Shown here piece after piece: positions 40,838 through 44,219 of a stretch of 46,195 bases of DNA (the first letter of the stretch is position 1; each line of letters starts with the position of its first letter). The position numbers and the translations under genes are program-made. This DNA comes from Candidatus Peribacteraceae bacterium (GTDB taxonomy: Bacteria > Patescibacteriota > Gracilibacteria > Peribacterales > Peribacteraceae). The notes below the pieces were generated by a model, which did no database searches, had not been told where the DNA came from, and was given only the letters and a program-made list of their open reading frames with translations. The stretch lies in assembly GCA_028707875.1 (NCBI GenBank), contig JAQWAC010000002.1, positions 1-46,195 of the forward strand, in the 5' to 3' direction.

Positions 40838-41924
40838 GTGGAAGACCTGCTGCAACATCTCCGGACCATAGCCTCCGCGATCTCTACGGGGAAGGACTCT
40901 CTTTGAGGCACGCAAAGTCCCCCACCGGATTGCGGAGCTCTCCGCGCTGACGACGGACGCGGATATCTGGAACGACCAGAAGCGGGCGCAGGGATTGTTC
41001 AATGAACTGAAAATTCTGAAGAAGCAGTGGGAACCCGTGGAGAAGATCGCACGGGAAGTCACCGCTCTCATCGAGATGATCGAAGCCGCTTCCGAGGCGG
41101 AGCGCGCGGAACTGGCGGAGGATGTGGAGAAACTGGAGAAGGACTGGCAGGCGCTCGAAACGCAGCTCTACCTGAGCGGTGAATTCGACGCCCTCAATTG
41201 TTACCTCACGCTGAGCGGCGGAGCCGGCGGCACCGAGGCGCAGGACTGGGCGGCGATGCTCATGCGCATGTACCTCCGCTACTGCGAACGAAAAGGATGG
41301 AAGACCACTCTTCTGGAAAAAACCGACGGACAGGAGGCGGGAATCAAATCGGCGACGATCCACGTGATCGGCGAATTCGCGTACGGGGAACTCAAGTGTG
41401 AGAAGGGAACGCATCGTCTGGTCCGGCTCTCGCCGTTCAACGCGAAGAACCTGCGCCAGACGAGCTTTGCGCTCGTGGAAGCTCTGCCGGAACTCCCCGA
41501 GTCCGCGGATGTCGCGATCAGCCCCTCCGACCTCAAAGTGGATACGTACCGCAGCGGCGGCGCCGGAGGACAGAACGTGAACAAGGTGGAGACGGCGGTG
41601 CGTATCACGCACATCCCCACAGGCATCGTCGTGGCGTGCCAGACCGAACGCAGTCAATCGCAGAATCGCGCGCAGGCGATGAACATGCTCCGCGCGAAGC
41701 TGCTGGAAAAGGAGAGGAAGGAAAAGGAGGAGACGAAGTCGGATCTCAAGGGGGCGCGGAAGAGTGCGGACTTCGGGCAGCAAATCCGCAGCTACGTCCT
41801 GCACCCGTATCAGATGGTGAAGGATCTCCGCACGGATACCGAGACGAGTGACACGACGGGGGTATTGGATGGCGATATCCAGCAGTTCATTGACGCGGAA
41901 TTGAAGCGACTCAGCAGAGAATAA
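40838..41924 (+). CDS. prfB: Peptide chain release factor 2 with programmed +1 frameshift at CTT TGA (40901-40906)
   Basis: Zero frame GTG-start [22 protein letters not shown] then CTTTGA; +1 frame [36 protein letters not shown]...; [19 protein letters not shown]. Confidence 0.95.
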
Positions 41925-42031: not shown

Positions 42032-42056
42032 CAAAAAAGCACCCCGAAGGGTGCCT
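42032..42056 (-). terminator. Rho-independent terminator of the histone-fold gene
   Basis: Minus strand GGCACCC-TTCG-GGGTGC followed by TTTTTTTG. Confidence 0.85.
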
Positions 42057-42080
42057 TATTGTTTGAAGTAAACCTGACGA

Positions 42081-42251
42081 TTAAAGATCGCAGGCGCGGA
42101 CGGTCTTGCGGCCGTTCTCCTTTGCACGATCGGCGGCCTTCTTGAGGGCGCCCTCAACATGCTTGCTGAGTGCATCCGCGAGATCACCGGCGGTCATCAT
42201 GTCCAAACCCTTGAGAAGGTCCTTGACCTTGGAAGCGACGACGTAGCTCAT
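42081..42251 (-). CDS. Histone-fold protein (bacterial/archaeal-type small histone), 56 aa
   Basis: MSYVVASKVKDLLKGLDMMTAGDLADALSKHVEGALKKAADRAKENGRKTVRACDL*; AxxRAxxNGRKTVRAxDL matches the histone-fold RKTIKAEDI-type signature; dedicated promoter-like and terminator sequences. Confidence 0.82.
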   Translation of the reverse strand: MSYVVASKVKDLLKGLDMMTAGDLADALSKHVEGALKKAADRAKENGRKTVRACDL

Positions 42252-42284
42252 GAAAAAGGGGGGAGGAAGTAGAAATGCGGGGCA

Positions 42285-42314
42285 ATTCTACGCACCCTCA
42301 AATCACGAATGCAA
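42285..42314 (-). promoter_or_regulatory. Putative sigma70-type promoter of the histone-fold gene
   Basis: Minus strand TTGCAT - 18 bp - TAGAAT. Confidence 0.5.
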
Positions 42315-42693: not shown

Positions 42694-42785
42694 TGGCGGA
42701 GGGACAGGGATTCGAACCCTGGAACCCCTTTATGGGGGTTACGCGATTTCGAGTCGCGCGCCTTCGACCACTCGGCCATCCCTCC
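42694..42785 (-). tRNA. tRNA-Ser(CGA), CCA encoded
   Basis: GGAGGGATGGCCGAGTGGTCGAAGGCGCGCGACTCGAAATCGCGTAACCCCCATAAAGGGGTTCCAGGGTTCGAATCCCTGTCCCTCCGCCA; long variable arm. Confidence 0.97.
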
Positions 42786-43301
42786 GTACCTGCATTGTAG
42801 CGAAACAGTTTGAAAAAGAACCATCGATAAGTGTGTACTCCCGATGAAAAAATCGCCGGTCATTCATACATATGTATTTTTGATTTTCAAAAATAATCCA
42901 CATTCATGACGACAATTTCTCTTGTCTATTCCTGCCGATAGTAATCGGTTGACATATCAAAAATTAACACAATAACTTACATCGAGGTCTCATCCAAATG
43001 AACTTATTGGGAGCGGCGATTCAAAAAACGATCGGCATCCCGGAGTCTTGATTTTCCAGTGGGTGCGGGTAGCATAGACAGGTTTGAGTAATATGTTTTC
43101 GCTACCTTTTCGGCCCGCGCGCACAGAGACGAACGACTGAGATTTTCCCCCCTCTCTATGGAGCCTCCACTGGCACCATACCCTGTCTCTCTTTCAAACG
43201 TTTCCACCATCGCAAGCGGCGAAGCCGCTCCGCCGCCGGAGACCCAAGTCCGGACTCCCGCAAAGGCGAACAGCCTCACGGTTCGGGGTGTGCGGCAACG
43301 C

Positions 43302-44219
43302 ATGAAGTTGCTCACACTCCATGATCAGCCGCTCATCAATGCATACTTCACAAAGTACCAGCCAAGCGTGTGTGAACTCACGTTCGCAAATCTCCTCAAC
43401 TGGAATTCAACCTATCCGCACTATCTGGGAAAAGCCTCCCCGCACTGTTTCTGCGAAGTGGACGGGCATCTGCTGATCGGCTTCTACGACAAGCTCGACC
43501 GCCTCAAGTTGTATCAGCCGGTCGGACCCGAACCGGAGAAATTGATCGTTGAACTCAACAGGGAATCTGCGGCACTGAAGTGGACCTGTGTCGAAGAATC
43601 CATCGCAAAGAAGGTCGGACCGGAATCGGAAGTGACGAGCGACCGTGACAATGACGATTACATCTACGATCTGAGGGAGATCCGGGCTCTCAGCGGCGAG
43701 AAGTTCCACAGGAAACGGACCTACATCAAGCACTGTCAGGAATGTCACCCCGCGGTCGTGCCTCTCACGGGAGCGATGACAGAATCCTGTCTGGAGGTGA
43801 ACAGAAAATGGCTCATGGACAAAGAACATCCGCACGATACCGATGCCACCGCTCTGGAAATCGCACTCACGCACTTCGATGAACTCAGGCTCGCGGGAAT
43901 CGGCGTCCTGATCAACGGGGCACTGGAGTCCTTCGCCATCGGCGAACCGCTGAACGGGACCACATACGTCTCGCATTTTCTGAAAGCGAACTATGATTTT
44001 CCGGGACTCTTCCAGTACACCGCGTACGCCTTCGCCCAATTCATCCCTCCGTCCTTCACACATCTGAATAAGGAGCAGGACCTCGGTCTGGAAGGACTGC
44101 GCATCGCGAAAGAGGGATGGTGCCCGTGTTCGATGGTCCGCAAGTTCACGATCCGGAACGCCAACTGGGTGACGACCGCACCGCACAATACCGCGAAGCA
44201 GGGGCCCACGGGGGAATAA
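43302..44219 (+). CDS. DUF2156-family (phosphatidylglycerol lysyltransferase C-terminal-like) protein
   Basis: FTKYQPSVCELTFANLLNWNSTYP; YIYDLREIRALSGEKFHRKRTYIKHCQE; QDLGLEGLRIAKEGWCPCSMVRKFTI. Confidence 0.75.
   Translation: MKLLTLHDQPLINAYFTKYQPSVCELTFANLLNWNSTYPHYLGKASPHCFCEVDGHLLIGFYDKLDRLKLYQPVGPEPEKLIVELNRESAALKWTCVEESIAKKVGPESEVTSDRDNDDYIYDLREIRALSGEKFHRKRTYIKHCQECHPAVVPLTGAMTESCLEVNRKWLMDKEHPHDTDATALEIALTHFDELRLAGIGVLINGALESFAIGEPLNGTTYVSHFLKANYDFPGLFQYTAYAFAQFIPPSFTHLNKEQDLGLEGLRIAKEGWCPCSMVRKFTIRNANWVTTAPHNTAKQGPTGE

Follow-up and report, generated by a model that had tools for sequence, protein, structure and literature searches.

The minus strand of the window, the whole stretch of 46,195 nucleotides analysed here, encodes at positions 42081..42251 a real histone of 56 amino acids (ATG..TAA), alpha3-truncated and FtF-like, as confirmed by translation, homologue searches, conservation and predicted structure. 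Histones were once thought to be absent from bacteria, and the host is Candidatus Peribacteraceae bacterium (Peregrinibacteria, CPR), apparently a lineage for which no earlier report of a histone is found. The gene, its fold, its conservation and the layout of its transcription unit are observed, and the explanation built on them, that an FtF-like histone forms a tetramer on DNA and compacts the chromosome next to HU, is given a probability of about 0.75.

A histone-fold protein in a bacterial genome had been proposed in the first-pass annotation, and the translation matches the protein quoted there exactly. Specifically, a single-sequence search of the PDB returned HBb (2.7e-6), HLp (6.9e-6) and HTkC (1e-4), that is, among solved structures exactly the known alpha3 histones, and the profile search proposed as a check, run with a family profile, found the same proteins more strongly (HLp 7.1e-17, HBb 1.2e-13, archaeal HTkC 6.9e-13), with HMfA at 0.0014. 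Against the Pfam model PF00808 (CBFD_NFYB_HMF) the protein scores 16.2 bits (E 0.013), below the gathering cut-off of 21.4; it is related to this histone family, yet too short and divergent for the model. A search of NCBIfam gave no match. Because the Pfam score lies below its cut-off and NCBIfam is empty, automatic annotation would probably leave the histone unnamed.

The AlphaFold2 model (pLDDT 89.5) places alpha1 at residues 6-15, a shortened alpha2 at 24-45 and an alpha3 of three residues at 53-55. Its best PDB match by Foldseek is HLp (9qt0_A, TM 0.97, rmsd 0.5 A), followed by HBb and HTkC at TM about 0.9, and the nucleosomal histones HMfA/B reach about 0.67. Alpha3 histones are defined by an alpha3 of 3-4 residues (PMC11390915) and, since the 3-residue helix fits this definition, the modelled protein is a complete alpha3-truncated histone and not a truncated gene. 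The motifs of the class are also present, with the RKT of loop 2 at R48-K49-T50 and D55 as partner in the Arg-Asp clamp; R48, T50 and D55 are invariant among 34 sequences. The long alpha2 and 10-residue alpha3 of nucleosomal archaeal histones (HMfB) are lacking, and the protein ends at DL. The likeness to archaeal histones noted earlier thus holds for the histone fold and not for a shortened archaeal nucleosomal type, since alpha3 is short by family design.

The closest characterized counterpart is HLp, the FtF histone of Leptospira perolatii (PDB 9QT0-9QT2; PMC12701072), which is alike in size, fold and truncated alpha3, and with which identity over the structure alignment is 38%; the HLp gene adjoins smc/map, whereas the gene studied here adjoins prfB. 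The FtF class is defined by the formation of a face-to-face tetramer (PMC11390915), which in HLp is held by R49, N53 and R55 with S52, T61 and F63, plus an R55-D62 clamp (PMC12701072). At an offset of 7 the corresponding residues are R42, N46 and R48, with E45, C54 and L56, and the clamp R48-D55. The conserved tetramer residues of HLp are all three present, and by these residue criteria the protein is an FtF histone, as is archaeal HTkC (PDB 9F2C), which has the same fold and the same FtF residues. An alignment of 34 relatives shows no variation at K10, N46, R48, T50 and D55, and at least 90% conservation of R42. Eight of the nine HLp DNA contacts are identical (A13, S14, K15, K17, K21, T27, G29 and T57), and the ninth, T56, is replaced by K49. 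Since R42, N46 and R48 are kept, as are almost all of the HLp contacts to DNA, DNA-wrapping tetramers like those of HLp are more likely than dimers of the HBb type.

A strict dimer that, like HBb, would bend or coat DNA with neither tetramers nor wrapping is the strongest competitor, and an unlikely one. HBb/Bd0055 of Bdellovibrio bacteriovorus (PDB 8FVX, 8CMP) is a close solved relative by both searches and by structure, is likewise alpha3-truncated and has the S-K, RKTV and RD-clamp motifs in common with the window histone; two positions of the HLp tetramer network are changed (S52 to E45, T61 to C54), and the fused Peribacteraceae relatives described below have lost R42, in their first half only. 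However, bacterial dimer histones are reported to be without the FtF Arg and Asn (PMC11390915), and HBb itself, a dimer, carries S and D at the positions of R42 and N46 (PDB search alignment), whereas both residues are present here and kept in nearly all family members. Furthermore, HLp outscores HBb in both the profile and the structure match, and the nearest relatives outside the lineage are archaeal FtF-type sequences.

For the tetramer, we infer the oligomeric state, DNA binding, wrapping, abundance and nucleoid role of the histone, and the course of events would be as follows. A short single-gene mRNA would be made from the gene's own sigma70-like promoter and translated without Shine-Dalgarno (SD) pairing. 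Two copies of the protein would form a dimer through the histone handshake. R42, N46 and R48, at the C-terminus of alpha2 and in loop 2, would then hold two such dimers together. The resulting tetramer would engage DNA over about 60 bp, regardless of sequence, and bend or wrap it; K8, K10 and K14, together with the T20/G22 and K49/T50 loops, would make the contacts, and the tetramer would act alongside HU in compacting a chromosome of roughly 1.3 Mb. The protein is basic (pI 9.25), and a DNA-wrapping role in the nucleoid is likely.

Leptospira, the host of HLp, is reported to be without HU (PMC12701072), whereas one HU gene is present in the window's own genome, and HU was found in 55 of 59 relatives. 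A histone that replaces HU is thus ruled out, and the histone adds to HU. The presence of HU in this genome and in nearly all relatives means that the histone is not needed as sole architect, which lends something to the improbable reading of a specialised histone-fold protein (a transcription regulator, an RNA-binding or a stress protein) rather than a general nucleoid protein, as does the report that some bacterial double histone-fold proteins are without DNA-binding residues (PMC13088155). Here, however, the DNA-contact residues are conserved, a single copy of the gene occurs almost throughout the family under a conserved promoter of its own, and its relatives in two tested bacteria are abundant nucleoid proteins (PMC10627809). 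Since almost every member of one CPR family has the gene, the histone probably belongs to the core chromatin of these cells, whose genomes measure about 1.3 Mb.

The distribution bears out the expectation that the ORF would recur in close relatives. It is found in 69 of 75 Peribacteraceae genomes (55 of the 57 of good quality; 37 of 40 genera), once in the genome to which the window belongs, and in 28 of 389 genomes sampled across the phylum. The two good genomes without it may reflect assembly gaps: in G457 the contig stops inside prfB, and in G027 the sole release-factor match, at 45%, was interpreted as RF1 and not as prfB. The nearest named relative, at 88% identity, comes from a Candidatus Peribacteraceae MAG, and the next-nearest are all from Peribacteraceae/Peregrinibacteria. 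Between the nearest relative and the window gene there are 7, 3 and 23 changes at codon positions 1, 2 and 3, and over 14 close pairs dN/dS is 0-0.40 with changes mostly at the third position; as judged from these substitutions, the gene is under purifying selection. The neighbourhood is conserved too, as a further check had asked: in most Peribacteraceae loci the histone gene is convergent to prfB, with rplT/infC beyond. In the window prfB (release factor 2, identity confirmed) lies at 40995..41924 on the plus strand.

A chance ORF, or contamination with archaeal DNA, might be entertained in view of the shortness of the ORF and of similar proteins in DPANN archaea. Both are ruled out, with a negligible residual probability, by the bacterial prfB/rplT/infC synteny that recurs across the family, by the family-wide presence of the gene and by the predominance of third-position substitutions; the gene is also without an SD, whereas archaeal homologues have GGAGG-type SDs. 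One apparent archaeal case was rejected in the same survey. On the contig labelled Euryarchaeota archaeon ARS80 (L068, NYYK01000002.1) a histone that matches a Peribacter one exactly lies in a Peribacteraceae prfB neighbourhood, and the contig is probably mislabelled or mis-binned.

The gene was described earlier as independently transcribed, and comparison of loci upholds this. The -35-like hexamer TTGCAT (42309..42314, minus strand) and the -10 box TAGAAT (42285..42290, minus strand) are present as described, 18 bp apart, the latter 33 nt before the ATG. Across 50 histone loci aligned on the start codon, TANAAT lies 30-35 nt 5' of the ATG in 49, and nearly all have a CTTGC-type -35 (the family consensus being CTTGC) upstream of it, which gives the conserved pattern CTTGC-N17/18-TANAAT; a simple promoter scan at the window locus returned no site. 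The 5' end of the transcript would probably lie about 26 nt before the ATG. Downstream, the strong hairpin and T-tract that had been read as a terminator are found at 42036..42057 (minus strand) as AAGGCACCCTTCGGGGTGCTTT followed by a T-rich tail, and a stable hairpin with T-tract stands 3' of the stop in 49 of 49 testable loci, with a stem sequence that varies between them. With the promoter kept at 49 of 50 loci and a terminator at all 49, the gene appears from its sequence context to be a monocistronic unit. A tRNA-Ser (cga) gene lies upstream on the same strand (42694..42785, minus). Farther along the window, a 353-aa ORF (43158-44219, plus strand) has no NCBIfam or PADLOC match.

The leader (42252..42284, minus strand) ends in TTCCTCCCCCCTTTTTC, with 19 pyrimidines among its final 20 nt and no SD; it had rightly been called pyrimidine-rich and SD-less, and only the sequence quoted for it was wrong, by one C too many. 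In the 50 aligned loci 15-19 of the final 20 nt are pyrimidines, and archaeal and other CPR histone homologues mostly have GGAGG-like SDs. This SD-less pyrimidine leader is a genome-wide trait of the lineage. Over about 303 kb of the same genome as the window, 25 of 229 ORF starts follow a leader with 15 or more pyrimidines in 18 nt; for internal ATGs the count is 19 of 1490 (p = 5e-12). SD-like motifs are not enriched at starts (12/229 vs 136/1490 internal ATGs). HU and genes resembling those for SSB and cold-shock protein carry the same kind of leader, and a leader special to the histone gene is thereby ruled out. In 25 of the 27 Peribacteraceae genomes with a match (G000:C70:15267-15289, L162, and 26 others), the 3' end of the 16S rRNA reads ACACTTCCTTA instead of ACACCTCCTTA, with CACTTCC in place of CACCTCC. 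The altered 16S end, the lack of SD enrichment and the enrichment of pyrimidine leaders together suggest SD-independent initiation throughout Peribacteraceae. An S1-domain protein is present, and the pyrimidine leader may be recognized in an S1-type manner.

Beyond Peribacteria, the closest homologues come from DPANN archaea, chiefly Diapherotrites, at 53-68% identity; these uncharacterised proteins reach 68% identity to the window histone over 53 residues, and as archaeal FtF histones they differ from it in their archaeal hosts, their SD leaders and their gene neighbourhoods, none of which is in common with it. Viral relatives are weaker (39-62%). In a tree of 56 columns, with limited support, the Peribacteraceae histones sit with DPANN and the other CPR histones (families f30, f61 and f23) group with HLp; neither a single CPR histone clade (AU p = 0.175) nor Peribacteraceae monophyly (p = 0.451) is rejected. 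An origin separate from the f30, f61 and f23 histones is tentatively favoured by this tree, and the closeness to DPANN suggests transfer of the gene from archaea. Loci L128-L137, from these Patescibacteria families, make up another group of CPR histones, which lie nearer to HLp and whose leaders contain a Shine-Dalgarno sequence.

Some relatives carry two histone folds in one chain. Such proteins of 119 aa occur in genomes G001, G017 and G029 and on contigs L094 and L102, and another doublet in G039 (L097); the fused doublets, of about 119 aa, lie at L072:6001-6357, L063:5442-5798, L094:132-488, L102:263-619 and L097:6001-6363. In the tree the halves of the first set, to which the G039/L097 doublet does not belong, fall inside the Peribacteraceae singlets; the doublets derive from FtF-like singlets, the first set within Peribacteraceae and L097, from another family, apparently separately. 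The model of the L072 doublet (pLDDT 94.2, pTM 0.87) matches the Methanopyrus doublet 1F1E and single-chain H2A-H2B; the two folds are predicted to pair intramolecularly, which supports dimerisation of the singlet. The layout recalls the DUF1931 proteins (Aquifex 1R4V, Thermus 1WWI), also bacterial histone folds; these are pseudodimers, whereas the window protein is a singlet and the Peribacteraceae doublets derive from FtF-like singlets. Tentatively, and at somewhat worse than even odds, the ancestor of this CPR family acquired its FtF histone from DPANN archaea and put it to use as a core component of chromatin beside HU, and some descendants duplicated and fused the gene, the first half losing the tetramer Arg. 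If true, the doublets would be a bacterial parallel to those of archaea and giant viruses.

Histones are rare in bacteria: alpha3 histones have been found in 1.15% of bacterial proteomes (PMC11390915) and any histone fold in 1.86% of bacterial genomes (PMC10627809), and the bacterial FtF histones come mainly from Spirochaetota, Planctomycetota, Bdellovibrionota and Myxococcota (PMC11390915, PMC12701072). CPR bacteria are unmentioned in the main texts of the histone surveys, and a search of article texts for histones with Peregrinibacteria or Patescibacteria returned nothing relevant; some of the sequences may be listed in the survey supplements. Histone-based DNA packaging would thus extend into ultra-small uncultured bacteria, a branch for which no report was found. 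Singlets, independent doublets and HU are all found in this one small group, which thus provides a natural series for studying how the nucleoid is shared by histone and HU and how dimer fusion arises. Two FtF-like histones from Planctomycetota (L109, L113) have an N-terminal tail rich in Lys, Gly and Ala that recalls the tails of eukaryotic histones.
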